NCBI RefSeq assembly: GCF_008728855.1
Contig: NZ_CP042906.1
Location: 5,361,001-5,425,000, forward strand
Length of the DNA stretch: 64,000 nt
Source of the DNA: Hypericibacter terrae
Lineage (GTDB): Bacteria > Pseudomonadota > Alphaproteobacteria > Dongiales > Dongiaceae
Direction of reading: 5' to 3'
Shown: positions 24,764 to 37,644 of the stretch, piece after piece
Layout of the letters: every line of letters starts with the position of its first letter
Numbering within the stretch: the first letter of the stretch is position 1
Notes under the pieces: generated by a model
Told to the model about the DNA's origin: nothing
Database searches by the model: none
What the model saw: the letters and a program-made list of their open reading frames with translations, nothing else
Position numbers and translations under genes: made by a program

Positions 24764-25197
24764 CTTGTCTTGAGCCGGCCTCTTCGGCCCGCCCATGGGT
24801 TCTTCGGAACCATGTATCGCGCGTGCTCACGCAATCGCGCGTTTCCACTCTCCAGATTGTGTGCGATCCCGCCAGTGCGAGCCGGCAGGGTCCGGCATTC
24901 AGCGGAATCTTGGCCCCGCGTCGCGGCAGGGCCCCGGTTTTATGCCCGGTGGAGTCATGCGGGCTGGCACCCTCCTGCGCTGTTGTTCACACGATGTCCG
25001 CCGCCGTCCGGCTGTGGCCATCGGGTCGTCCCGCAGGGACGGTCCGCTGGTCGTCGCCATCAGGCGATCGACGGGATCAGCGTTGCGCCATCGCGCCTGG
25101 GAGTCAACCCACCCGTCTCGCAGCGCGGTAAATTCCAGTGCACAACTGCGTAATCCGGCGTTCCGCCAGCGCGTTATCGAATACGGTTCGGAGATAC

Positions 25198-25221
25198 GAG
25201 CGACCCCGGCGAAGGTCGCTC
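25198..25221 (-). terminator. Hairpin just after the aldehyde dehydrogenase
   Basis: Perfect 8-bp stem GAGCGACC/GGTCGCTC, 22 bases past the stop codon. There is no T run, so it may be an RNA-stabilising 3' hairpin or a rho-assisted terminator rather than a full intrinsic terminator. Confidence 0.4.
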
Positions 25222-25242
25222 ATATCGGGACGCGATGCGCGG

Positions 25243-26754
25243 TCAGATCTTCTCGCGCTCGGCGAAGAACTCATCGCTGTAGGGATACCACCAGCCCTGC
25301 AGCGCGGGGCTGGGATCGAGCATGATCATCTTCGCGCGCCGGAAACTGTTGAGCCCGATGCGGCTCAAGGAACGGCCGAGGCCCGAGGCCTTCCAGCCGC
25401 CGAACGGCAAGGCTTCGTTGTCGCCCAGCACATTGTTGACCCAGACCATCCCGGCTTCGAGCCGTTCGGTCGCCGCCATCGCCTCGTCGAGCCTGGTGGT
25501 GTAGATCGCGGCTCCGAGGCCGTAGCGGGTCCGGTTGGCGAGCGCGATCGCCTCGTCGAAGCTCGCGACCTTGCAGATCGGCGCCACCGGCCCGAAGCAT
25601 TCCTGCTGCAGGATCGCCATCTCAGGTCCGCAACCGGTGAGAATCGTCGGCTCGTAGAACCAGCCCTTGTTGAATTGCGGCGGCACCCGGCCGCCGCAGG
25701 CGAGGCTGGCGCCCTTGGCGAGCGCGTCGTCGACCAGCGCCATCACCTTGTTGCGCGCGGCCTCGCTCACCAGGGGCCCGATCTCGACCCGCCCCATGCC
25801 GGGCCCGACCTTGAGCGCCCGGGCGCGCGCGGTCATCGCCGCGACGAACTCGTCATGGATCGCCTCATGCACATAGAGCCGTTCGGCCGCGGTGCAGATC
25901 TGCCCAGAGAGATGGAAGGCCGCGGTGACCGCCGCGGCGGCCGCGATATCGACGGGGGCCGAGTCCATCACGATCATCGGATCGCTGCCGCCGCCTTCGA
26001 TCACGCAGGGTTTCATCAGCTCGCCGCAGGCGGCGGCCACGCGGCACCCCACCTCGGCGCTGCCGGTGAAGGCGACGGCGCCGATCTCGGGCGCCTTGAT
26101 CAGGGCCTGCGCGGTCCCGGCCCCGCCGGTGACGCAGGCGACCAGGCCCGCGGGCAGCTGGCGGAAATGGCGCATGAAATGCAGCGTGCAGAGCGAGGTC
26201 GCCTCGGCCGGCTTGACGATCACCGGATTGCCGGCGGCGAGCGAGGCCGCGACGGTGAAGGCCATCAGCACGATCGGAAAATTGAAGGGCAGGATATGGG
26301 CACTCACCCCGATGGGGAACCAGCGCATGATCTGCAGACTGCCGGGCGAGGCCGGTCCCGCCACGTCGCCTCCCTCATCGCGCGCCAGCTCGGCGAAATA
26401 GCGGAAGATCGGCGCCACATTCATGAGCTCGCCCACCGCCTCCGCATAGGGCTTGCCCATCTCCCTGACCATCAGCGTGGCGGTCTCGCGGTGGCTCTCC
26501 GTCTCGATCGAATCGGCGAGGCGATGCAGCAGCCCCGCGCGGGTCTTGGTGTCGAGAGCCGCCCAGTCGCGCTGCGCCGCGACCGCCTTCGCCAGCACCG
26601 GCGCCAGGCTCGCCGCGTCCGCATAGGCGATCTCGCCCACGCGCTCGAGATTGGCGGGATCCAGGACCGGCTTACGTGAGAGCGTCGGCAGGACGCGCCA
26701 TTCGTGATCGACGAACATCGCGCCCGCGAACGGATCGAACTTGGCCTCGGTCAT
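25243..26754 (-). CDS. Aldehyde dehydrogenase family protein
   Basis: 503 aa NAD(P)+-dependent enzyme that oxidises an aldehyde to an acid. Motifs: PFNFPIVLMA, AFTGSAEVG (cofactor loop), the Glu motif written EGGGSDP instead of the usual ELGG, and the catalytic Cys287 in SGQICTAAE, then ECFGPVAPI and LPFGGWKASGLGR. The G-S-D-P after the Glu recalls succinate-semialdehyde-type dehydrogenases, but the substrate cannot be fixed. It is a single gene, and the non-coding stretch downstream may belong to its transcript. Confidence 0.9.
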   Translation of the reverse strand: MTEAKFDPFAGAMFVDHEWRVLPTLSRKPVLDPANLERVGEIAYADAASLAPVLAKAVAAQRDWAALDTKTRAGLLHRLADSIETESHRETATLMVREMGKPYAEAVGELMNVAPIFRYFAELARDEGGDVAGPASPGSLQIMRWFPIGVSAHILPFNFPIVLMAFTVAASLAAGNPVIVKPAEATSLCTLHFMRHFRQLPAGLVACVTGGAGTAQALIKAPEIGAVAFTGSAEVGCRVAAACGELMKPCVIEGGGSDPMIVMDSAPVDIAAAAAVTAAFHLSGQICTAAERLYVHEAIHDEFVAAMTARARALKVGPGMGRVEIGPLVSEAARNKVMALVDDALAKGASLACGGRVPPQFNKGWFYEPTILTGCGPEMAILQQECFGPVAPICKVASFDEAIALANRTRYGLGAAIYTTRLDEAMAATERLEAGMVWVNNVLGDNEALPFGGWKASGLGRSLSRIGLNSFRRAKMIMLDPSPALQGWWYPYSDEFFAEREKI

Positions 26755-26850
26755 GAATCCCCCTCGTCAGGCCTGCCGGATCGGCATCCTCGGGGGGAGA
26801 TTAGACCAAACCATCGACGCCGGGCGAGACGTCCGGCCGGGGCGAAGCTG

Positions 26851-27330
26851 TCAGTTCAGCGCCTTCTTCGCCATGGCCGCCGCGGCGCGCTTCGCGATCT
26901 CGCCGGGCGGCACATCCTCGATATGGGTCGCGACATGCCAGACATGGCCGAACGGATCCTGGAAGCTGCCCGACCGATCGCCATAGAACTGGTTCTGGAC
27001 CGGACGCAGCTCCTTGGCGCCGGCCGCCAGCGCCGATTTCGCGATCGCGTCCACGTCGGGCACATAGAGATGGATATGCACAGGCGAGCCGCCGAAGGCC
27101 TTGGGGCTTTTCGCATTCATCTCGGGATATTCGTCGGCCAGCATGACCCGCGAATCGCCGATCGTAACCTCGGCATGGCCGATGCGGCCGTCGGGCATGG
27201 GCAGACGCAGCGCCTCCTTGGCGCCGAACGCCTTGGCATAGAACTCGATCGCCTTGGCGGCACCGTCGACCATCAGATAGGGCGTGATGCTGTGGTGGTT
27301 GTCGGGAATGGGCTTGGCTTTACCGGCCAT
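26851..27330 (-). CDS. PhnB/glyoxalase-like VOC protein
   Basis: 159 aa from the ATG at 27330, with AAGGAG about 8 bases before it. It is a single VOC module of the PhnB-like type: ITPYLMVDGAAKAIEFYAKAFGA at the start, HAEVTIGDSRVMLADE, HIHLYVPDVDA, and QDPFGHVWHVATHIEDV at the end. Members of this group are widespread and mostly uncharacterised. The C-terminus has a Lys/Ala-rich tail (KRAAAAMAKKALN). Confidence 0.85.
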   Translation of the reverse strand: MAGKAKPIPDNHHSITPYLMVDGAAKAIEFYAKAFGAKEALRLPMPDGRIGHAEVTIGDSRVMLADEYPEMNAKSPKAFGGSPVHIHLYVPDVDAIAKSALAAGAKELRPVQNQFYGDRSGSFQDPFGHVWHVATHIEDVPPGEIAKRAAAAMAKKALN

Positions 27331-27471
27331 GATCCGCTCCTTTGCTTGGGAGAATTTCTCAGGGCCCAAGCATGGTACCGAACCCACGTTGGTGGCTAGT
27401 CCGCGTGGCAGCAACATTCTTGTGACAATGCGGAGAAGCGGGGAGCGCCCAAGTTGCGAAAATCGTCTCGG

Positions 27472-28605
27472 TTACTTCGTTCGTGATTCTTGAGATGCAA
27501 TACCTTGGGCAAGACGATACGAAAAATCTAATGAATTGAGATCGTGACGCACAAGATACTGCAGAGACGCAACCAAAATAGCGGCTCCTAGAAACTGCAT
27601 AATGTAGTAGTCACTTTGGACCTTGTCGATCTCGCTCGTCGCATCACCGGCGTTGAATTTATTGGGTATATTTCTCTGACCGTGAAGGAGACGAGAACGA
27701 AAATTATACAGATCCTTTATCTGCTTCTGGTACTTTTCGGCACCAGGAATTAGAAGGGCGCATTTTCCCACGATTTGATTGACGATCGAATCTTCATTTC
27801 TCGCGTAAAGTGCCTCCAACCCAATCAAACTCCAGACTAACTCTTCGATCTCGCCCCCTGAAAAGGTTTCTCCAAAGAAGTAGGAGTAGGCGTTCAGCGC
27901 GCGACCAATAGGCGTTTGGCTCGTGCCCTCAAGGAAACCTGCATGGCGACTCGCCCATTTCCACGTTTTAACAGGATCAAGCTCGATGAAGTCTGGCCAA
28001 CCTCGTTCAATTGCCTCCCTAAAGACGACATCGATCTCATGCAGAATTGGCTCCATCCTGAGCACGGGATGATCGTCCATGAGACAGATGCCGGCGCCTA
28101 ACTTGAAGACGCCCGGACGAGCGATGTTCATCGCTACGACAAAAAGCTGAATCGCTCTCTCGCAAGACTCAGCAAAGAGGGTCTCGAAGAGCTTTCGACG
28201 TTCGTCTAAAGGCCATTCCTCTAACGTACCATCGCTACGTTCAATCGGTGGCGCGTCGCGGGTCGGAACCGCTTTAGTGCTGAAGCGCAGCCATATCACT
28301 GCATTCGCCAGAAATCTCGACGGGCTCTCCTTCTGGAATTTAACCACATGCTCTGATGCTGGGCGAAGAACTGCGCGAATGCGAAGCTTCGCCGGATGAT
28401 AACCTGGCGATTCGACAGGGATCAGTTCCGAGCATTCGTGGATTACGCTAACAAGTTTTGCGTTTTGGCTCGCGATAGGCGGCCAAATAACGGCGATCTC
28501 TTCGATTGGGTAGTAAATCGTCACGCGCCGACTTACGGTCCAGACTCCGCGGCGCGCGTTATGTTTGGCGACGTCAGAGCTCAACGCCATTTTGTTCCAA
28601 TACAT
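27472..28605 (-). CDS. Apea-type HEPN domain protein (candidate RNase/defence)
   Basis: 377 aa. The C-terminal third has the plan of an Apea-like HEPN domain: LVWSLIGLEALYARNED, then a helix, then LYNFRSRLLHGQ, where R303 and H308 fit the R-x4-6-H active site of HEPN ribonucleases (Arg-Ser-Arg-Leu-Leu-His-Gly). The N-terminal 200 residues are unassigned. The gene is clearly poorer in GC than its flanks and lacks a good Shine-Dalgarno sequence, signs of recent transfer. Related HEPN proteins act in abortive-infection or toxin systems, but many are of unknown role, and no partner nucleotidyltransferase or helicase lies beside it. Confidence 0.6.
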   Translation of the reverse strand: MYWNKMALSSDVAKHNARRGVWTVSRRVTIYYPIEEIAVIWPPIASQNAKLVSVIHECSELIPVESPGYHPAKLRIRAVLRPASEHVVKFQKESPSRFLANAVIWLRFSTKAVPTRDAPPIERSDGTLEEWPLDERRKLFETLFAESCERAIQLFVVAMNIARPGVFKLGAGICLMDDHPVLRMEPILHEIDVVFREAIERGWPDFIELDPVKTWKWASRHAGFLEGTSQTPIGRALNAYSYFFGETFSGGEIEELVWSLIGLEALYARNEDSIVNQIVGKCALLIPGAEKYQKQIKDLYNFRSRLLHGQRNIPNKFNAGDATSEIDKVQSDYYIMQFLGAAILVASLQYLVRHDLNSLDFSYRLAQGIASQESRTK

Positions 28606-28679
28606 TGAAATCGATGAACAATGCCCAGGCCTTTAATGGTGGCGGAGATTTCAAAATGCGTTGCGGAAGATTAGTAGAT

Positions 28680-29414
28680 TTATCGGATCATATAGACCTT
28701 GCGCATGGTCTCCTCGATCCGGCAGGTGCCCTTCCAGTCTTTCGGGAAGAACGCGACCGTGTCGGGGCGGATCTCGATCACCTCGCCCGATTCATGGGTG
28801 TAGGTGCAGCGTCCCGCGATGAAGTGGCAATATTCGTCGCTGGTGACGTGGCAATTCCAAGTGCCCGGCGTGCAGATCCAGATACCGGTCTCGCTGCGCC
28901 CGCCCGGGCCCTTGAAGAGCAGCTTGCCCGAGGTCATGGACTTGCCTTCGATCATGGTCGGCACCGCGCCCCAATCGACCAGCGATCCCTGGTTGAGCGG
29001 ATTGCGCATGATGGGTGCCGCACCGCGATCGAGCGCGGTCGGCGTGCGCGCCAGCATATAGGTGTTGCGCGTGGTCTCGTGCACATCGCAGCGCCCGGTC
29101 CAGCCCGAGGGGAAATGCACCACGGTCTCGGGGCCGACCTCGATGGTCTCGCCATTATGCTCGGTATAGGTGGCGCGGCCCGAAAGGAAATAGCAGATCT
29201 CGTCGCCCGGAATCGAAAGCCGCCAGGAGCCCGGCGTCACGACCCAGAGCCCGCTTTCGACGGCGCGCTCGCCATTCTCGTCGCGCTTCCAGAGGAGGCG
29301 GCCGCTCGAATGAGAGCGGCCCTCGATCGCGTCGGGCTGATCGCCCCAATCCACCAGGTCGTTGTAGCTCTTCGCCGGATGGATATGCGGCGCCGACGAG
29401 CCTTCGAGCTTCAC
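28680..29414 (-). CDS. Bicupin protein (two tandem cupin modules)
   Basis: 244 aa from a GTG at 29414 that overlaps the TGA of the glycosyltransferase gene (GTGA). Two halves repeat the same module: GDEICYFLSGRATYTEHNGE with FPSGWTGRCDVHET, and SDEYCHFIAGRCTYTHESGE with FPKDWKGTCRIEET. Both also share LVDWG and an EG(R/K)S motif upstream. The modules resemble the ethanolamine-utilisation EutQ/DUF861 cupins. A role as an epimerase, isomerase or sugar-binding regulator is possible. It is the last gene of the trio with the H1-like protein and the glycosyltransferase. Confidence 0.82.
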   Translation of the reverse strand: MKLEGSSAPHIHPAKSYNDLVDWGDQPDAIEGRSHSSGRLLWKRDENGERAVESGLWVVTPGSWRLSIPGDEICYFLSGRATYTEHNGETIEVGPETVVHFPSGWTGRCDVHETTRNTYMLARTPTALDRGAAPIMRNPLNQGSLVDWGAVPTMIEGKSMTSGKLLFKGPGGRSETGIWICTPGTWNCHVTSDEYCHFIAGRCTYTHESGEVIEIRPDTVAFFPKDWKGTCRIEETMRKVYMIR

Positions 29415-31042
29415 GACAGGCCCTCCGCCATGCCGGGCCGCTCCGTCACCTGGGCGATGAGACGCGCGGCCTTCTCCGGCCCCTTCTGCGATTGCATGTA
29501 GCGGGCGCAGGCCTCCAGCCGCAGCTTCATCGCGCTGTCGCCCAGGAGCCGGCGGATCGTCGCGGCGAACTGCTCGTCGCTCCAGGCATAGCGCGGCAGC
29601 TTGGCGCCGAAGCCGGTGTCCTGGATGCGCGTCGCATTGTCGAGGCCGTCCCAGCAATAGGGCATGATGATCGCGGGTTTCCCGAAATAGAGCGCCTCGT
29701 TGAAGCTGTTGTTGCCGCCGTGATGGATGAAGAGATCCACATGCGGAATGACCGCCGGCTGCGGATACCATTTCTCCAGATGCACATTGCCGGGAACGTC
29801 CCGGTACTGGTCGATGTAGTCGCCGACATTCATCAGGAAGCGATAGGGCAGCTTGCCGAACAGCGTCAGCATGCGCTTGTAGAGATCGACATCGGCCGCG
29901 CCCAGGCTGCCGAAGCTCACATAGATGAGCGGCTTGCCCTCGTTGGCGGCGAATTTCGGCACCGCGTATTGACCCTCGTCGCGCACGCAGCCATCGAGAT
30001 ACTGGAAGCGCTTGGGATCGAGCTCGTGGCGCCGCTTGAAGCGCAGATGCTTGGGATAGAGCAGCAGGTTCATATAGGGCGAGGTCTCGAAGAACTCGCC
30101 CAGCTCGTAGGCCGGATGGCCGACCTTCGCGAGGAACTTGTTGAAGCGATCGTGGGCCGGCTTCACCTGCTTCAGGAATTCGGATTCGAAGGCATGGAAG
30201 CAGGCCTTGTCGTTCTCGCCGCAGCCGGAGAGATGCGGCGGGATGTCCGGGTCCGCGACCTCGTTCTCCGAGCAGGAGATGATGCGGATCCAGGGCTTGC
30301 CGATCATCTTGATGGCCGGGAACAGGATCACATTGTCGACGCAGACCACGTCGGGCTTGAGGCTCTGCAGATGGGCCAGGAGCATCTCGTGCGAGTTGAT
30401 CGCGGTATCGACGATCATCTCCCAGACCGGCACCACATAGGTCGGGATCTGCTCGATCGGCGAGAGCTTGAAGTGAGGCAGGTGCTGGGCGATGAAGTCC
30501 GACCAGAAGCGGGCCGCTTCCTCGTCGGGCATGCCGCCCGACATGTCGACCAGCTTCTCCTCGAAGCCATAGCCCTCGAACACACTCTTGAAGCCCTTGT
30601 CGCAGACGAAGACCGGGTCATGGCCCATCTGGCGGAGCTGCTGGGCCACGCCCACGCAGTTGAGCGCCGGGCCGAAGGCGGCCTCTGGATAGAGCACCAC
30701 GCGCTTGCCCTTCTTCCCCAGGCGGGGGCGGGACAGCGGTGCCTTGACCGGGTTTGCCTCGGATGCAGGGCCGGCCTTGGAAGAGGAACGGGGCGCCGAA
30801 GCCTTGGCGCGTTTCGGCTTCGGCGCGACCGTCTTTCCGGCTGTCGCTTTCGGCGATCCCGCGGCCTTCCTGGCCTTGGGGGCCGAGGATCGTTTGGGTT
30901 TGGCGCCGGCGGCGGAGTTGCGGGCTGATTTCCTTTTGGCGGCTTTCGGTTTGGCGGCGGCCTTACGCCCTGCCGCCCGCTTCACCGATTTTTTCTTCGC
31001 CGCCTTTGTCTTCGCCTTCTTTCTCGCCGCCTTCGCCATCAT
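29411..31042 (-). CDS. UGT/MGT-type glycosyltransferase with histone-H1-like tail
   Basis: 543 aa. Residues ~1-112 are a Lys/Ala/Pro/Arg-rich, disordered tail of the KAAKKK, KPKAAKRK, PKPKRAK kind, like bacterial H1 homologues. Residues ~113-540 are a GT-B glycosyltransferase of family GT1: KRVVLYPEAAFGPALNC at the start, and HHGGNNSFNEALYFGKP with PYCWDGLDN at ~440-470 as the nucleotide-sugar signature. Relatives glycosylate lipids, sterols or macrolides. GACGAGGAT lies close before the tandem ATG-ATG start. The tail could bind DNA, RNA or acidic lipid membranes; that it is real protein is supported by the ORF continuing unbroken into the enzyme. Confidence 0.85.
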   Translation of the reverse strand: MMAKAARKKAKTKAAKKKSVKRAAGRKAAAKPKAAKRKSARNSAAGAKPKRSSAPKARKAAGSPKATAGKTVAPKPKRAKASAPRSSSKAGPASEANPVKAPLSRPRLGKKGKRVVLYPEAAFGPALNCVGVAQQLRQMGHDPVFVCDKGFKSVFEGYGFEEKLVDMSGGMPDEEAARFWSDFIAQHLPHFKLSPIEQIPTYVVPVWEMIVDTAINSHEMLLAHLQSLKPDVVCVDNVILFPAIKMIGKPWIRIISCSENEVADPDIPPHLSGCGENDKACFHAFESEFLKQVKPAHDRFNKFLAKVGHPAYELGEFFETSPYMNLLLYPKHLRFKRRHELDPKRFQYLDGCVRDEGQYAVPKFAANEGKPLIYVSFGSLGAADVDLYKRMLTLFGKLPYRFLMNVGDYIDQYRDVPGNVHLEKWYPQPAVIPHVDLFIHHGGNNSFNEALYFGKPAIIMPYCWDGLDNATRIQDTGFGAKLPRYAWSDEQFAATIRRLLGDSAMKLRLEACARYMQSQKGPEKAARLIAQVTERPGMAEGLS

Positions 31043-31086
31043 CCATCCTCGTCCGTCATTCCCTCGATCGTCGTCGCCTCAAGCCC

Positions 31087-31467
31087 TTATTGCGGTTTGT
31101 CGGGATCGGGCTTGGGCGTCGGCGCCCAGGCCGAGGGCGCAGCCGGCTTGGGTTCCGAGCCGTGGCTCATCGGTGCCGGAGCCGGCGCGGGTGCCGGCTT
31201 GGGCGCCGGAGCCGGTTTCGGCGCCGCCATGGCGGGCTTGGGTGCCGGGGCGGGCGCCGGCTTGGGAGCCGGGGCGGGCTTCGGTGCCGCGGCCTTCTTC
31301 TTCCGCGCCGCCTTCTTCTTGGCGGCCTTCTTGGCAACCTTCTTCTTGGCGCTGCGCCGGGGCGCTACCTTGCGCTTCGGGGCTTTCCGCTTCGCCGTCT
31401 TCTTGGCGGATTTCTTCTTGGCGGCCTTCTTCTTCGCCGCCTTCTTCTTGACTGATCGTCTGGCCAT
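31087..31467 (-). CDS. Histone-H1-like Lys/Ala/Pro-rich protein
   Basis: 126 aa from ATG 31467, preceded by GGGGGAGGAT. Residues ~5-50 are repeated KKAAKKK, KKSAKK and KRKAPKRK units. Residues ~55-100 are APKPAPAP repeats, and the tail is Pro-rich and polar. It has the composition of bacterial histone-H1-like or PA/KA-tail proteins that bind nucleic acid without sequence preference. It lies 44 bases upstream of the glycosyltransferase whose N-terminus has the same composition, which suggests duplication of the tail or a shared role. Low-complexity sequence could be misjudged, but the ribosome-binding site and the context favour a real gene. Confidence 0.65.
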   Translation of the reverse strand: MARRSVKKKAAKKKAAKKKSAKKTAKRKAPKRKVAPRRSAKKKVAKKAAKKKAARKKKAAAPKPAPAPKPAPAPAPKPAMAAPKPAPAPKPAPAPAPAPMSHGSEPKPAAPSAWAPTPKPDPDKPQ

Positions 31468-31593
31468 AGATCCTCCCCCTAACAAGGTTGGATATCGGAC
31501 GCGCCGGTGGCGCGCTCGCCGGATTCTTCGATCCGAGATTGGGAGTGTTCCGTTTCGGCGCGCGCTTGTCCAGCGCGCCCGTCGCAAGATCGA

Positions 31594-32664
31594 TCAGTTC
31601 GTGAGCAGTCGCGCCCGTTCCTTCGTCCATTCGCACGCGACCGCCGCACCCTCGGTCATCTCGGGCAGCGACTCCTGACCGGCACCGAGACGCGCGACCA
31701 GGGGCCGCGCCAGACCGACGACGCGGACATGGAGAATGAGGTCCTGGCCCAGATAGGCGACGCTCTCGACTCGGCCGGCCAGCCCGTCGCCCGACGCTGT
31801 CGGCGTTCCCGGGCGCACCCGGATTCGCTCCGGTCGGATCGCCAGCGACGCCGGCGTTCCCGCCGGCAGGCCGCCCTCGGCAGCCGGCAGCACCCGGTCC
31901 AGGCCCTGGGCCGCCAGGCCGCCCGGCGCCGCCCTTCCTTCGATCAGATTCATCAGCCCGATGAAGTCGGCGACGAAGCGGTTGGCCGGCTCCTCATAGA
32001 GCGCGCGCGGCGGCCCCAATTGGGCGATCTGGCCCTGATTCATCAGGGCGATCCGGTCCGCCATGACCAGGGCTTCCTCCTGGTCGTGGGTTACGATCAG
32101 GAAGGTGATGCCGGTTTCATGCTGCAGCCGCTTGAGCTCGAGCCGCATCTGGTCGCGCAGCTTCTTGTCGAGGGCGGCCAAGGGCTCGTCCAGCAGCAGG
32201 AGCCGGGGCCGTTTGACCAGGGCCCGGGCGAGCGCCACCCGCTGGCGCTGGCCGCCCGAGAGCAGATGCGGCTTGCGTCGGGCCACATCCTCGAGCTGGA
32301 CCATCGCCAAGGCCTCGGCGGTACGCCGCTTCAGCTCCGGGCCCCGGACGCCTTCCATCTCCAGCCCATAGGCGACATTGCCCTCGACCGTCATATGCGG
32401 GAACAGGGCATAGGACTGGAACATCATATTGATCGGGCGCCGGTTGGCCGGCATGGCGACCAGATCCCGGCCGTCCAGCGCAATCCGTCCGCGATCCGGC
32501 GTCTCGAACCCGGCCAGGATGCGCAGGAGGGTGGTCTTGCCGCAGCCCGACGGCCCCAGCAGGGCGAAGAACTCGTTCTCGCGGATTTCCAGGTCGATCC
32601 CGGCCAGCGCCACGACCGGTCCGAAGGACTTTTCCACAGCGGCGATCTGGATCAGCCCGGTCAT
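31594..32664 (-). CDS. potA: Polyamine ABC transporter ATPase
   Basis: 356 aa. The ATPase domain has Walker A GPSGCGKTT (~37-45), Q-loop MMFQSYALFPHM, signature LSGGQRQR, Walker B LLLLDEPLAALD and switch His in VTHDQEEAL. The C-terminal ~110 residues are a TOBE regulatory domain. It powers uptake of spermidine or putrescine. Its start overlaps the potC stop (ATGA). Confidence 0.94.
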   Translation of the reverse strand: MTGLIQIAAVEKSFGPVVALAGIDLEIRENEFFALLGPSGCGKTTLLRILAGFETPDRGRIALDGRDLVAMPANRRPINMMFQSYALFPHMTVEGNVAYGLEMEGVRGPELKRRTAEALAMVQLEDVARRKPHLLSGGQRQRVALARALVKRPRLLLLDEPLAALDKKLRDQMRLELKRLQHETGITFLIVTHDQEEALVMADRIALMNQGQIAQLGPPRALYEEPANRFVADFIGLMNLIEGRAAPGGLAAQGLDRVLPAAEGGLPAGTPASLAIRPERIRVRPGTPTASGDGLAGRVESVAYLGQDLILHVRVVGLARPLVARLGAGQESLPEMTEGAAVACEWTKERARLLTN

Positions 32665-33482
32665 GCGCCCGGCCCCCGCCCCGACTCGCGGCTGAAGCGC
32701 TGGGCCAGCAGCATCAGGGTGAAGCTCACCAGCAGCAGCAGGGTGGCGATGGCATTGATCTCGGGGGTCACGCCGAAGCGGATCATGGCGTAGATCTTCA
32801 TGGGAAAGGTGGTGGAGCCGCTGCCGGCACCGGCGGAGAAATAGGCGATCACGAAATCGTCGATCGACAGGGTAAAGGACAGGAGGGCCGCCGCGATCAC
32901 GCCCGGCAGGATGATCGGCAGGGTGACGCGCCGGAAGGTGGTCCAGGCCCCGGCTCCCAGATCGATCGAGGCCTCGATCACGGAGCGGTCGAAATTCCTG
33001 AGTCTCGTGCGCACCACGGCCGCCGCGAAGGCGATCACGAACACGCTCTGCGACAGGACAATGGTGTAGAGCCCCAGCGTGAACTGCAGCAGCGTGTAGA
33101 AGGACAGGAGTGCGATCGCCAGAACGATGTCGGGAATAATCATCGGCACCATGACGAAGCTGTCGAGGAGAGTCGAAGGCCGCCCGCGCTCGAGCCCCAG
33201 CGCCAGCAAGGTGCCCCCGGCCGTCGAGATCAGCGTGACGGCCAGAGCCACAGCCAAGCTGTTGGCGACCGACTTCAGGATTTCGGGATTCTGGATCAGC
33301 GCGCCATACCATTTGAAGGAGAAGCCGGTCCAGGCGGTCGGCATGCCCCCCGCATTGAAGGAGAGCACGATCAGGGTGACGATCGGCCCATAGAGGAAGA
33401 GATAGATCACGAGCGCATGCGCCTTGAGCAGGCGGCGCGTGCCGCGGCCCTGCAGCCTGGCGAGGGCGCTGGCATCAGTCAT
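32661..33482 (-). CDS. potC: Polyamine ABC transporter permease PotC
   Basis: 273 aa inner-membrane permease with about six helices. The EAA loop is seen as EASIDLGAGAWTTFRRVTLPIILPG, which contacts PotA. It starts 8 bases inside the end of potB and overlaps potA by 4 bases, so the three genes are translated as a coupled unit. Confidence 0.93.
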   Translation of the reverse strand: MTDASALARLQGRGTRRLLKAHALVIYLFLYGPIVTLIVLSFNAGGMPTAWTGFSFKWYGALIQNPEILKSVANSLAVALAVTLISTAGGTLLALGLERGRPSTLLDSFVMVPMIIPDIVLAIALLSFYTLLQFTLGLYTIVLSQSVFVIAFAAAVVRTRLRNFDRSVIEASIDLGAGAWTTFRRVTLPIILPGVIAAALLSFTLSIDDFVIAYFSAGAGSGSTTFPMKIYAMIRFGVTPEINAIATLLLLVSFTLMLLAQRFSRESGRGPGA

Positions 33483-34377
33483 AGGTGCCCATCCGCCGCG
33501 CGCGGTTGACGAGATAGGCCTGGAGGCTCAGGAGCGCCATCATCACGCCCATCAGGATGAAAGAGAGGGCGGAACCGAAGGGCCAGTCGCGGGCGTTGAG
33601 GAACTGGTCATAGATCAGATTGCCGACCATTACCGTGCGTCCGCCGCCCAGGAGGTCGGGGGTGATGAAATTCCCCATGCTGTAGACGAAGACGAAGATG
33701 GCGCCGGCAGCGGCTCCCGGCACCGTCAGCGGCAGCGTGATGCGCCGGAAGCTGGTGAAGCCGGGCGCGCCCAGATCGGTCGAGGCCTCGATCAGGTCGG
33801 GCGAGAGCCGGCTGATGGCCGCATAGAGCGGCAGGATCATGAAGGGCAGATAGGCATAGACCAGGCCCACCAGGATCGCGAACTCGTTATAGAGCAGATC
33901 GACCGGCTCGCTGGTCAACCCCAGCCAGGAGAGAAGGCCGTTGATCAGCCCCTGCCGGTTCAGGATCACGATCCAGGCATAGGTGCGGATCAGATAGTTG
34001 GTCCAGAAGGGCAAGACCGCCAGCAGCAACAGGATCTTCTGCCAGCGCAAGGGCGCGGTCGCGATCAGATAGGCCATGGGATAGCCCAGGACGAAGGCGA
34101 TCAGCGTGGCGAGGCCGGCGATCTTGAGCGAGGTCAGCAGGATGCCGAGATAGAGGCTGTCGGCGGCGCGGCTGTAGTTCTCAAGCGTGAAGATGTAGTC
34201 GATGCCGCCATAGGTGCCGCGCTCGAAGAAGCTCAGCACCACAACGAGCGCGCAGGGCAGCACCAGGAAGAGCGCGATCCAGCCCAGCGGCAGCGCCAGC
34301 AGGCCGGCCCGCGTCCGGGCGGCCGGCGACCATCGCGGCGGGCGCGGCTTGTCGGCGGACAGGGCGATCGAGCTCAT
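33475..34377 (-). CDS. potB: Polyamine ABC transporter permease PotB
   Basis: 300 aa inner-membrane permease. Motifs include LPFWTNYLIRTYAW, typical of PotB, and the EAA loop EASTDLGAPGFTSFRRITLPLTVPG. It has about six helices. It forms the channel with PotC. It follows potD by 77 bases. Confidence 0.93.
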   Translation of the reverse strand: MSSIALSADKPRPPRWSPAARTRAGLLALPLGWIALFLVLPCALVVVLSFFERGTYGGIDYIFTLENYSRAADSLYLGILLTSLKIAGLATLIAFVLGYPMAYLIATAPLRWQKILLLLAVLPFWTNYLIRTYAWIVILNRQGLINGLLSWLGLTSEPVDLLYNEFAILVGLVYAYLPFMILPLYAAISRLSPDLIEASTDLGAPGFTSFRRITLPLTVPGAAAGAIFVFVYSMGNFITPDLLGGGRTVMVGNLIYDQFLNARDWPFGSALSFILMGVMMALLSLQAYLVNRARRMGTYD

Positions 34378-34454
34378 GGCAGGGGAAAAACCGGCACGAA
34401 ACGAAGACGAGGCTGCCCCGGACTATCGAGGCAGCCCCGACCGTCGTTTCCGGC

Positions 34455-35513
34455 CTACTGCGCCGAGGTGATCTCGGTCACGGCGCGGGTATAGTCCTTC
34501 TGCGCCTTGCCCAGATCGCGCAGCTGTTCCTGCTTCATCAGCTCCGCGGGCGTCATGCCGATATTGGGATATTGCTCGATCAGCTTCGGGTCGAGCCCTT
34601 CCATCGCCTTCTGGTTCGGCACCTTGTAGAGGATGTTCTCCGCCACCCAGCGGTGAATCTCGGGCCGCAGCACATAGTTGATGAAGGCCATGGCCGCGTC
34701 CTTATGTTCCGAGGCCGCCGTCACCACCATGGTGTCGACCCACATGTCGCTGCCTTCCTTCGGCACCACGAACTTGATGGCCGCATTCTCGGCGATGCCG
34801 TAATTGCACCAGCCGTCCCAGGCCTGGACCAGCACCGCCTCGCTCGACACCAGTTTCGAATAGAAGGTGGTGTCGTCATAGGCGAGCAGGTTCTTCTTGG
34901 CCTCGATCAGGAGCGCCTTGGTCTTGGCGATCTCGTCCTCGTTGGTGGTGTTGACCGAATAGCCCAAGGCCTTCTCGCCCGCCGCCATCAGCCAGCGATC
35001 GGTCGCCAGCATGGTGATGCGGCCCTTGATGTCGGCCGAGGGCTGCAGCAGGTCCATCCAGCTGGTGGGCGCGGTCTTGATCAGGTCCGAGCGGTAGCAG
35101 AGGCCGGTCGTGCCCCAGGCATAGGGGACGGAATGCGCGTTGCCCGGGTCATAGGCGAGCGCGCGGGCTTCGGGATAGAGATTGGCGAGATTCGGGATCT
35201 TGGCGGCGTCGAGCGGCGCGATCAGCTGCAGGTTCTGCAGCGCCTCGACGAAGGGGCTGGAGACGAACAGCACGTCATAGCCCTTGCCGCCGCCGGCCAC
35301 GACCTTGCCCATGATCTCTTCATTGGTGGCGTGGACCGACATCTCGGCTTCGATGCCGGTTTCCTTGGTGAAATTGGCCAACAGGTCGGCCGGCATATAG
35401 CCGTCCCAGTTGGAGATGACGATTTTTTCCGCGAACGCCGCGCCGCTGCCGAGCAGCAGGCCGCAGGCGAAAGCAAGGCCGAACGCGGCCCTGCGGGTCA
35501 GGCGCAGTGTCAT
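34455..35513 (-). CDS. potD: Periplasmic polyamine-binding protein PotD
   Basis: 352 aa with a Sec signal peptide ending GAAFAEK. The mature N-terminus KIVISNWDGYMP is characteristic of PotD/PotF, as are TTGLCYRSDLI, LVSSEAVLVQAWDGW and WVAENILYKVPN. It captures spermidine or putrescine for PotBCA. GGGGAGCG precedes the ATG. It is the first gene of the potDBCA operon. Confidence 0.93.
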   Translation of the reverse strand: MTLRLTRRAAFGLAFACGLLLGSGAAFAEKIVISNWDGYMPADLLANFTKETGIEAEMSVHATNEEIMGKVVAGGGKGYDVLFVSSPFVEALQNLQLIAPLDAAKIPNLANLYPEARALAYDPGNAHSVPYAWGTTGLCYRSDLIKTAPTSWMDLLQPSADIKGRITMLATDRWLMAAGEKALGYSVNTTNEDEIAKTKALLIEAKKNLLAYDDTTFYSKLVSSEAVLVQAWDGWCNYGIAENAAIKFVVPKEGSDMWVDTMVVTAASEHKDAAMAFINYVLRPEIHRWVAENILYKVPNQKAMEGLDPKLIEQYPNIGMTPAELMKQEQLRDLGKAQKDYTRAVTEITSAQ

Positions 35514-35892
35514 GAAACGCTCCCCGTTATGCATCCGATCGGGCCAGGTTGCGGACGAACCGGTCCTGAGCCCTTGTGAATTGGCAGTCCTTGCGGGAAC
35601 GATCATCGGGGGCGGATCGCCCCGGGGTCAACCCACCTTGGGGCGCGTGAAAGAATCGAGCCGAATGGCGAGAGGCGCGGGAGCAAGATTTCAAGCCCCC
35701 TCCCCTTGCGGGAGCGGATAGGGGGAGGGGGTGCCGCGCACGAGGTTTTTGCCAACAAACGCGCAACTTGCTCATCGCTTCGCCTGTGGCGGGCGCCCCC
35801 TCCCCGCTCGCCGCCCCTCCCGCCCGCGGACTTCGCCCGCCGACTCCTTCAGATCGCCGGCGAAGCCGGCATGGGAGGGGCCCTGGTTTCTG
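35514..35892. other. Intergenic region with a GC-rich palindrome
   Basis: 379 bases upstream of potD and downstream of the gamma-glutamyltransferase. At about 35693-35735 CCCCCTCCCC faces GGGGGAGGGGG, another member of the C/G-block family. A GCCGGCGAAGCCGGC hairpin near 35854 may end the leftward transferase transcript. Promoter sequences for potD presumably lie between 35514 and 35690. No gene is supported. Confidence 0.5.
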
Positions 35893-37485
35893 TCAGGGTT
35901 CCGCCGCGGCGCCCGACCAGGGTGAGGCGATATCGGCCATGCCGCGATTGAGGCCGCCGCCGGGCTCGCGCATGACGGCGTTGGGCGAGGCGAACAGCAC
36001 CGGATGGACATCGAGCGTGCCGCGGCGCACCGCGAGCGCCGGGTCGATCGCGGCCTTGATCTCGGGCGAGAGGCGATTGTCGAGCGTGACGCCGGCGCCG
36101 CTGGCATCGAGGCGCGGACAATGGAAGGCCGCCTCGAGATCCATGCCGAAATCCACCAGGAAGGACAGGATCTGCGCCACTGCGGGCAGGATGCGCCGGC
36201 CGCCGGAGGCGCCCAGCGCCGCCCAGGGCTGGCCCGACTTGCGCAGGATCGTCGGCACCATGTTGGAAAGCGGGCGCTTGCCGGGCGCCATCGAGTTGGG
36301 CCGGCCCGGCGTCGGATCGAACCACATGATGCCGTTATTGAGCATCACGCCGCTGTCTTCGAGCAGCACCTTGGAGCCGAAGCGCGACAGCAGCGTCTGG
36401 GTCAGCGCCACCATATTGCCCTGCCGGTCCACCACGGAGATATGGGTCGTGCAGGAGGCGCTCGCCGGATTGTTGCGCGCCGTGCCGTCGCCCGCATCGC
36501 CCATGGTCTGAAGCCGCTCGCGATAGGCGCGGTCGAGGGCCGAGGCATAGGCGCGGTAGGCATCGGGCCCGGGCGCGCGGCCGGATCGCTCCTCCATGTC
36601 GGCGGTGAGGAACTCCAGGGTACGGGCGAGCGTCGGGCCCGCCGTCAGGCCGCCCGGCGCGAAGACTTCGACCTCGCGATAGGAGGACGCCGGGGCCGGC
36701 ACCACGCGCGCGCGATAGTCGGCGAGGTCGGCAGCCGAGAGCTTGCCGCCGAGGCGTTGCATCTCGGCCGCGATGGCACGCGCGGTCTCGCCCTCATAGA
36801 ACTCGCGCGCGCCTGCCTTGGCGAGCCGGCGGAGCGTGATGTCGAGCTTGCCCAGCGCCAGGCGCGGCGGCGGACCTTCGGCCGCGGCCGGCGCCGGCGG
36901 CAGTCCACCCGGCAGATAGATCTTGCGGGCGCCGGCATTCTCGGAAAGCTCGCGTGCCGCGACGGCGATCGAGAGCACGGTGTACCAGTCGACCGGCAGG
37001 CCGGCCTGGGCCAGGGCCGCGGCGGGCTCCAGCAGGCGGGCCCAGGGCAGCGTGGCGAAGGTCTCGTGGGCCACGCGCATGCCGTCGACCGTGCCCGGCA
37101 CGGCGACCGAGAGCGGCCCCTTGATGTTGCGATCGCCCTTGACCGAGGGCCATTCGAACAGCGCCTGGGTGGTGCCGCCTGCGAGCGGATAGTCGGCCGG
37201 ATCGAGCGTCTTGGGCGCGATCATGCCGAACTCGACGCATTGCACCTCGGGCGCGCCGGCCATCGCCACCAGCATATAGCCGCCACCGCCGATCCCGCTC
37301 ATCCAGGGCTCGAGCACACCGACCGCGAAGCTGGTCGCGATCGCCGCGTCGACCGCATTGCCGCCGTCCGCCAGCACGGTCGCACCGATCTTGGCCGCCG
37401 CCAGGCTCTGCGAGGTGACGATGCCGCCCTCGGCGGCCACCGCCTTCTTCACGAAACTGCCTTCGGGGCGATAGGGATCGAGCAT
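35893..37485 (-). CDS. ggt: Gamma-glutamyltransferase, no signal peptide
   Basis: 530 aa Ntn-hydrolase-type enzyme that self-cleaves at a Thr and moves or hydrolyses gamma-glutamyl groups. The autoprocessing Thr is T346 in SCTTHISVVD. The N-terminal VTSQSLAAAKIGATVLADGGNAVDAAIA and the GIGGGGYMLV loop are family marks, as are LNNGIMWFDP and KRPLSNMVPT. There is no signal peptide, so it is probably cytoplasmic, unlike secreted E. coli Ggt. It stands next to potDBCA, consistent with polyamine or glutathione-type metabolism, but this is context only. Confidence 0.9.
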   Translation of the reverse strand: MLDPYRPEGSFVKKAVAAEGGIVTSQSLAAAKIGATVLADGGNAVDAAIATSFAVGVLEPWMSGIGGGGYMLVAMAGAPEVQCVEFGMIAPKTLDPADYPLAGGTTQALFEWPSVKGDRNIKGPLSVAVPGTVDGMRVAHETFATLPWARLLEPAAALAQAGLPVDWYTVLSIAVAARELSENAGARKIYLPGGLPPAPAAAEGPPPRLALGKLDITLRRLAKAGAREFYEGETARAIAAEMQRLGGKLSAADLADYRARVVPAPASSYREVEVFAPGGLTAGPTLARTLEFLTADMEERSGRAPGPDAYRAYASALDRAYRERLQTMGDAGDGTARNNPASASCTTHISVVDRQGNMVALTQTLLSRFGSKVLLEDSGVMLNNGIMWFDPTPGRPNSMAPGKRPLSNMVPTILRKSGQPWAALGASGGRRILPAVAQILSFLVDFGMDLEAAFHCPRLDASGAGVTLDNRLSPEIKAAIDPALAVRRGTLDVHPVLFASPNAVMREPGGGLNRGMADIASPWSGAAAEP

Positions 37486-37644
37486 GGGATTTCCTTTGGG
37501 CGCGGGCCAGGGGCCGGCTGGGGATAGGCGGCCGACAGGTTAGCGCCTCGGGGCCCGAAAGACAGCCGCCTACAGGTGACCGACTCCGAAAGTAAAGGTT
37601 AGACTCTAGGCGACCATCACCGCACCCACGGTCCCTTCCCCTTC

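Follow-up and report, generated by a model that had tools for sequence, protein, structure and literature searches.

The stretch of DNA considered here, hereafter the window, covers 64,000 nucleotides of the single-contig, 5.89 Mb genome of Hypericibacter terrae (G000 in what follows; Alphaproteobacteria, Dongiaceae). In it, at 5.39 Mb of the genome, a gene for an H1-like protein, a gene for a GT1-like glycosyltransferase (GT) and a bicupin gene form one run on the minus strand. As an arrangement this trio is limited to the genus and overlies an amine-type operon of wide occurrence; its GT is a member of a GT1 subfamily in which two hallmark residues have been lost. The features of the run are as follows.

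31087..31467, minus strand: H1-like Lys/Ala/Pro-rich protein P0003, 126 aa, with a weak HC2 resemblance below the model cut-off; apparently a genus-specific insertion
29411..31042, minus strand: GT1-like protein P0002, 543 aa, a basic N-terminal tail followed by a GT1-fold core
30710..31042, minus strand: basic N-terminal tail of the GT, aa 1-111, net charge +37, predicted to be disordered (composition; AlphaFold2 pLDDT <50 for residues 1-109)
29411..30709, minus strand: GT1-fold core of the glycosyltransferase-like protein (Pfam, profile and fold matches, alignment)
28680..29414, minus strand: bicupin P0001, 244 aa, with two EutQ-like Cupin_3 barrels (Pfam, structure prediction, alignment)

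The layout is that described in an earlier note made from the letters of the sequence. The gap between the end of the H1-like gene (31087) and the GT start (31042) is exactly 44 bases, the bicupin starts with GTG at 29414 and shares GTGA with the GT stop, and the H1-like composition, the GT1 core and the bicupin are all confirmed. The H1-like tail that the note had given to the GT is present as well, and a tail of nucleic-acid-binding type on a sugar-transferring enzyme is both real and unusual; its placement is now refined to the N-terminus, where roughly the first 110 residues contain 24% Lys, 10% Arg and 28% Ala. The likeness of P0003 to HC2 and histone H1 is one of composition, with scores of 17.4 bits for PF07382 (cut-off 40) and 16.1 bits for NF038053 (cut-off 80).

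Basic segments in the genome and in the family

Only the H1-like gene and the GT gene hold a basic segment within the 64 kb, defined as 60 residues of which at least 12 are Lys and at least 45 are K/R/A/P/S/T, and sought in open stretches of at least 40 codons. Across the whole G000 genome, a KKxAKKK codon pattern has four matches, three of them inside the H1-like gene and the fourth outside the listed open reading frames (ORFs) of its strand, in a gap between two ORFs that we take by eye to be mdh and sucC. The H1-like protein as query found itself alone in G000 at E 0.01 (best 150 of 488 candidates), and the GT tail found itself and then three stretches at E 0.099-0.6 with stops inside (best 150 of 270). 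A genome full of H1-like tails is not seen with this codon pattern and these two protein queries.

In G014, the second genome of the genus (genus counts rest on these two), the H1-like gene, the tailed GT and the cupin recur in the same order and frame. Between G000 and G014 the ratio of nonsynonymous to synonymous substitution rates (dN/dS) is 0.125 for the H1-like gene, 0.395 for the GT tail, 0.174 for the GT core and 0.089 for the cupin, and identity is 72% in the tail versus 91% in the core. Because frame and order are kept in G014, and because of these ratios, the H1-like gene and the tail both appear to be translated and under constraint, which is looser for the tail; the tail conserves charge more than sequence. 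An in-frame GTG in the codon 115/116 region, after the AAGAAGGG stretch, stands in G000 and G014 about where untailed homologues begin, and it might give an untailed enzyme beside the tailed one; with a GAGG stretch just before the upstream ATG and codon constraint running through the tail, we give such partial translation only a slim chance.

The GT core was found in all 17 genomes of the family, in 13 of the 385 class genomes (E 1e-60), and in 8 of 398 genomes of the phylum when searched with the family profile. An alignment was made of 64 GT rows, which include duplicate loci and paralogues, and gaps were set aside in residue counts. Tails are long in G000, G014, G001 and G016 and short in G015 (111, 111, 88, 240 and 36 aa, with net charges of +37, +38, +35, +92 and +13, in that order), each with at most one acidic residue, and the other 59 of the 64 rows are untailed. 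Six more rows above the Lys threshold are not tails, as the open stretch upstream is just 5-15 codons. Elsewhere in the five tailed genomes, a second pattern has one match each in G000, G014 and G001 and none in G016 and G015. The earlier note had allowed that the tail might prove to be misassembled low-complexity sequence; misassembly and chance low complexity are out, given that G014 shows the same order, frame and composition and that G001, G016 and, in short form, G015 have tails too; one of these four further genomes is also a single contig.

A scan of 114 loci for basic segments returned the GT of G000, G014, G001 and G016 (the G015 tail is too short for the criterion), the H1-like genes of G000 and G014, and a lone gene of G009. 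A separate H1-like gene adjoins the GT only in G000 and G014. With the H1-like protein as query, 4 of the 17 family genomes matched (G000, G014, G009 and G016), and the G016 match is weak, with a stop inside and no Lys-rich frame. The trio as a functional system, which is how the earlier note had presented it, is not supported; the three genes are kept together in the genus only (2/2). Two side observations concern other basic proteins: the G009 gene (L071) codes for an H1-like Lys/Arg/Ala protein that stands alone, at a site with no relation to the GT operon, and in Dasania (L004:8288-8965) a TetR/BetI-like regulator with its own Lys-rich N-terminal extension stands next to GT and cupin.

In the tree, the five tailed GTs fall outside a supported (99/96) clade of eleven untailed family members; the branching order among the five is not settled, and G001, a partial sequence, lies beside G014. 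The seventeenth family genome, G011, is split over contigs and was left out of the tree, and its N-terminal piece (L030) is untailed. One gain and one loss of the tail, or several gains, would fit this picture. The tail is a lineage-specific add-on, and the H1-like gene a genus-specific insertion between the ABC ATPase and the GT. Since eleven relatives manage without the tail, a serious rival to any targeting role is that the tail and the H1-like gene are tolerated low-complexity expansions and that the operon works alike either way. The fast drift of the tail and its range of lengths (36-240 aa) agree with this, whereas a tail dN/dS of 0.40 when rounded, the scarcity of acidic residues, the low ratio of the H1-like gene, and a composition that the searches made found nowhere else in G000 argue against it. 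On balance we regard neutral expansion as rather unlikely, while keeping it in view.

The glycosyltransferase core

The GT core matches PF06722 with 60.6 bits (cut-off 31.7) and PF00201 with 44.2 bits (cut-off 19.5), which gives it a GT-B fold with a C-terminal domain of UDPGT/EryCIII type, and AlphaFold2 predicts a confident GT-B core. With the macrolide GT model TIGR01426 (MGT) it reaches 123.9 bits against a curated 260, which leaves it outside that model. The nine best solved chains in Foldseek are spider-mite UGTs, several with flavonoids bound. Spider-mite UGT203A2 and UGT202A2 (PDB 7lvy, 7mco, 6pnt, 8sfw) match over the whole core, with 255 and 167 bits for the family profile, and TM-scores for the spider-mite UGTs reach 0.91 by target length. 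A search with UGT203A2 recovered 8 of 398 phylum genomes and 14 loci, in both cases the ones also obtained with the family profile.

In GT1 enzymes a His after the first strand is catalytic, and a Gln lies at the donor site. UGT203A2 keeps both, where the operon family has Pro/Ala and Gly. Position 125, aligned to the mite His, is Pro in 46 rows, Ala in 16 and His in none (62 readable of 64), and Gly466 is found in 58 of 59 readable rows, the mite and Streptomyces proteins having Gln. Invariant in all 62 readable rows are Glu120, Asn128, Asp236, Cys257 and Glu261; Glu259 and Asp264 each occur in 61 of 62, and His441 of the nucleotide-binding HGG motif in 60 of 60. Glu261, Glu259 and Asp264 are family-specific, and UGT203A2 is without them, without Glu120 and, in the part seen, without such a tail. 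These acidic residues, if they line the acceptor site, would fit a cationic acceptor.

Because all 62 readable rows have Pro/Ala at one hallmark position and 58 of 59 have Gly at the other, the GT1-like protein might have ceased to be a glycosyltransferase and might instead bind a nucleotide sugar or an amine, in the role of a sensor or of a chaperone-like partner of the cupins. We consider this improbable: His441 and Asp236 are invariant and the family has acids of its own, and because of this the site looks altered but working, with catalytic roles taken from GT1 enzymology.

Ahn et al., cited in PMC6288829, are said to have described a bacterial origin of the mite UGTs in 2014. When compared with UGT203A2, a homologue on a Streptomyces coeruleorubidus plasmid (L110:7001-8257), which has no cupin or importer neighbours and has Gln at the donor site, scores 251 bits, operon members at most 206 and the G000 GT 182. 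Direct derivation of the mite UGTs from the operon family is weakened, as the Streptomyces homologue is closer, and this homologue may hint at the donors from which the mite gene family came.

The conserved operon

The genes on both sides of the run in the window are listed below; family names of neighbours are used throughout as annotations rather than as tested functions.

31594..32664, minus strand: ABC importer ATPase of polyamine type with TOBE domain (Pfam; synteny)
32661..33482, minus strand: permease, PotC/PotI-like (NCBIfam, below cut-off)
33475..34377, minus strand: permease, PotB/PotH-like (NCBIfam, below cut-off)
34455..35606, minus strand: substrate-binding protein (SBP) of the PotD/PotF family, which has a conserved signature of its own; the start codon is uncertain (NCBIfam, alignment)
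35893..37485, minus strand: gamma-glutamyltransferase-like gene, immediately upstream of the importer in G014 as well (NCBIfam, synteny)
26851..27417, minus strand: VOC/glyoxalase-fold protein, at the same place in G014 (Pfam, synteny)
25243..26754, minus strand: aldehyde dehydrogenase (ALDH), aminoaldehyde/betaine-aldehyde-like (Pfam, NCBIfam)

Neighbourhoods of the GT were counted over 45 loci, which are partly non-independent (for example, three are from Shinella). In 40 of them a cupin gene lies within 600 bp downstream of the GT and on its strand. Among the remaining five, G001 and G501 end too early, and G015, the Streptomyces plasmid and a P. frederiksbergensis plasmid fail; the G015 cupin is ~750 bp away behind an opposite-strand ORF, and the P. 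frederiksbergensis locus is a GT fragment. All four PotFGHI-type importer genes are upstream of the GT at 24 of the 45 loci, and an ALDH gene is within 3 kb downstream at 27, in G210 past an opposite-strand gene. The bicupin is fused in G000, and there are two adjacent cupin genes in many relatives and one in some. These counts, together with the scan of 114 loci for H1-like genes, rule out the trio as an ancestral unit.

The importer comprises an SBP, two permeases and an ATPase of the spermidine/putrescine class in order, and is thus Pot-type by class; the NCBIfam equivalogs PotD, PotF, PotB, PotH, PotC and PotI all score below cut-off (PotD, for example, 161 versus 582). A signature of (N/I)WD(G/A)YM, TDRWL, AWDGWCN and (M/L)W(V/I)D is shared by all 19 SBP rows that were aligned out of the 24 loci with an importer, the SBP of the window included. 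The bicupin matches PF05899 with 103.1 bits (cut-off 23.5) in two stretches, which makes it a EutQ-like Cupin_3 protein, and structure prediction gives two confident barrels with 3myx as best structural match. Asp193, Glu194 and several Trp and Gly residues are kept in 20 aligned cupin rows.

The operon ranges over alphaproteobacteria, some gammaproteobacteria and two haloarchaeal plasmids. GT-cupin-ALDH is seen on Natrialba magadii pNMAG01 (L107) and on a Natronorubrum aibiense plasmid (L111), with a GT identity of about 50%, an apparent transfer between domains. Both plasmid loci carry a ROK kinase and phosphoglucomutase beside it, and Natrialba has GS, an FAD oxidoreductase, a glutamine amidotransferase and an aminotransferase nearby. 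An HTH-cupin regulator with a PuuR match is present in G002, HTH-cupin genes occur also in G005 and G013, DAO-type oxidases lie near the operon in G002 and G005, and BetI-like TetR genes at two gammaproteobacterial loci. A divergent second GT occurs in Rhizobiaceae, Ruegeria, G444/G448 and three family members; it is followed in G501 and G644 by a GS-family (PuuA-like) gene and a DAO oxidase. G444 has an AmgK-like kinase by family search, and G448 presumably another, recognised by eye. The second GT paralogue points away from the importer at L101-L106, L108, L109, L112, L046 and L047, and a GntR-family gene lies between the two at L102, L104, L105, L106, L108 and L112.

A 377-aa ORF (27472-28605, minus strand) stands between the bicupin and the VOC gene and has a GC content of about 0.50-0.53 versus 0.61-0.70 around it. 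It has no Pfam, NCBIfam or PADLOC match, contains a HEPN-like R-x4-H stretch, and looks like a recent insertion; as a member of the unit this ORF ('DUF377') is out, since it is missing at that place in G014 and has low GC. Rfam gave no match at gathering score in window positions 25000-37600, and PADLOC none for three ORFs. Promoter-like sites (3, versus 1.8 in shuffles, sd 1.4) and terminator-like sites (8, versus 8.0) were uninformative.

Interpretation and known systems

The explanation that we tentatively favour, at somewhat less than an even chance, is that the unit forms the distal section of a conserved amine uptake and oxidation operon, with a divergent small-molecule GT1 that carries a polycationic tether in some lineages. 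The genes would be read as a single transcript. The PotFGHI-type importer would take up an amine compound, the divergent GT1 would add a sugar to a small acceptor, either the amine or an alcohol or aldehyde derived from it, the cupin proteins may assist at some step, and the ALDH would oxidise the aldehyde. The basic tail, with its H1-like neighbour in the genus, would act as a polycationic tether to a polyanion such as nucleoid DNA, RNA or polyphosphate, and would alter the location of the enzyme and not its product. This tether role is the most likely one judging from composition.

Several observations weigh against this explanation. The importer is absent beside the GT, despite adequate flank, at about fourteen of the 45 loci (several others have a short flank), and the neighbour matches to NCBIfam Pot, PuuR, AmaA and GGputSyn models are all below curated cut-offs. 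No GS or DAO (PuuA/PuuB) relative is found in the window, so that the Puu pathway genes are not represented there, and the best GS/PuuA-like match in G000 lies at 2.20 Mb, versus 5.39 Mb for the operon. The positions that we take to be PotD Asp168 and Glu171 align to Thr and Trp in these SBPs, and because of this the ligand is probably not spermidine; an SBP of polyamine type does not have to bind a polyamine. Loss of the usual catalytic His and donor Gln casts doubt on sugar transfer by the GT, and the tail is not needed for the core task, because the eleven-member clade is untailed without visible change in the operon.

The earlier note had suggested that the GT might glycosylate a nucleoid- or membrane-bound target; in that reading the tail would carry the enzyme to its macromolecule. 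Beyond the H1-like composition of the tail and its neighbour nothing points to such a target: untailed orthologues stand in the same operon, the fold and the closest solved relatives are those of small-molecule GT1 enzymes, and the neighbours are genes of transport and amine oxidation. We hold this very unlikely. A further reading, which we think doubtful, is an undescribed GT1-cupin-ALDH amine module of proteobacteria and haloarchaea, in which a sugar would mask the amine or amino-aldehyde where Puu uses gamma-glutamate. The AmgK-like kinases (G444/G448), and the ROK kinase and phosphoglucomutase of the two haloarchaea, would then recycle the freed sugar as sugar-1-phosphate for the donor, and the H1-like tether of some lineages would hold the enzyme at the nucleoid or at polyphosphate, sites of polyamine accumulation. 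A literature search over titles and abstract openings, with subscription papers mostly outside it, returned no account of the operon or of an H1-tailed glycosyltransferase.

An active GT would break two hallmark rules of GT1 chemistry; were it inactive, the 'glycosyltransferase' annotation would be wrong in many genomes. It is the GT1 subfamily, more than the tail, that merits bench work, and the natural tailed and untailed orthologues are a test bed for the effect of an H1-like segment on the location of a metabolic enzyme.

Among known systems, Puu-type (gamma-glutamyl) polyamine operons are alike in having a Pot-type importer and an aminoaldehyde-type ALDH, and their PuuR-like regulator, GS/PuuA-like and DAO genes are matched in some relatives. 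They differ in that GT1 and EutQ-like cupins form the fixed core here, with PuuA and PuuB relatives missing from the 64 kb. For the bicupin, the EutQ-like Cupin_3/DUF861 proteins 3bcw and 3myx belong to the same family and share its two-barrel fold; they are likewise listed without known function, and the classical His-X-His motif is not found in the bicupin or in the 20 aligned cupin rows. The H1-like proteins AlgP and PhaF have, as the GT tail does, a Lys/Ala/Pro-rich disordered basic domain. AlgP is an example from other bacteria of an H1-like domain that acts on granules, and the net charges of the whole proteins are +55 for AlgP and +35 for PhaF (PMC9239181), versus +37 for the GT tail alone. 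The domain of AlgP lies at the C terminus, follows a helical domain and consists of KPAA repeats, whereas the GT tail is irregular and N-terminal on an enzyme.

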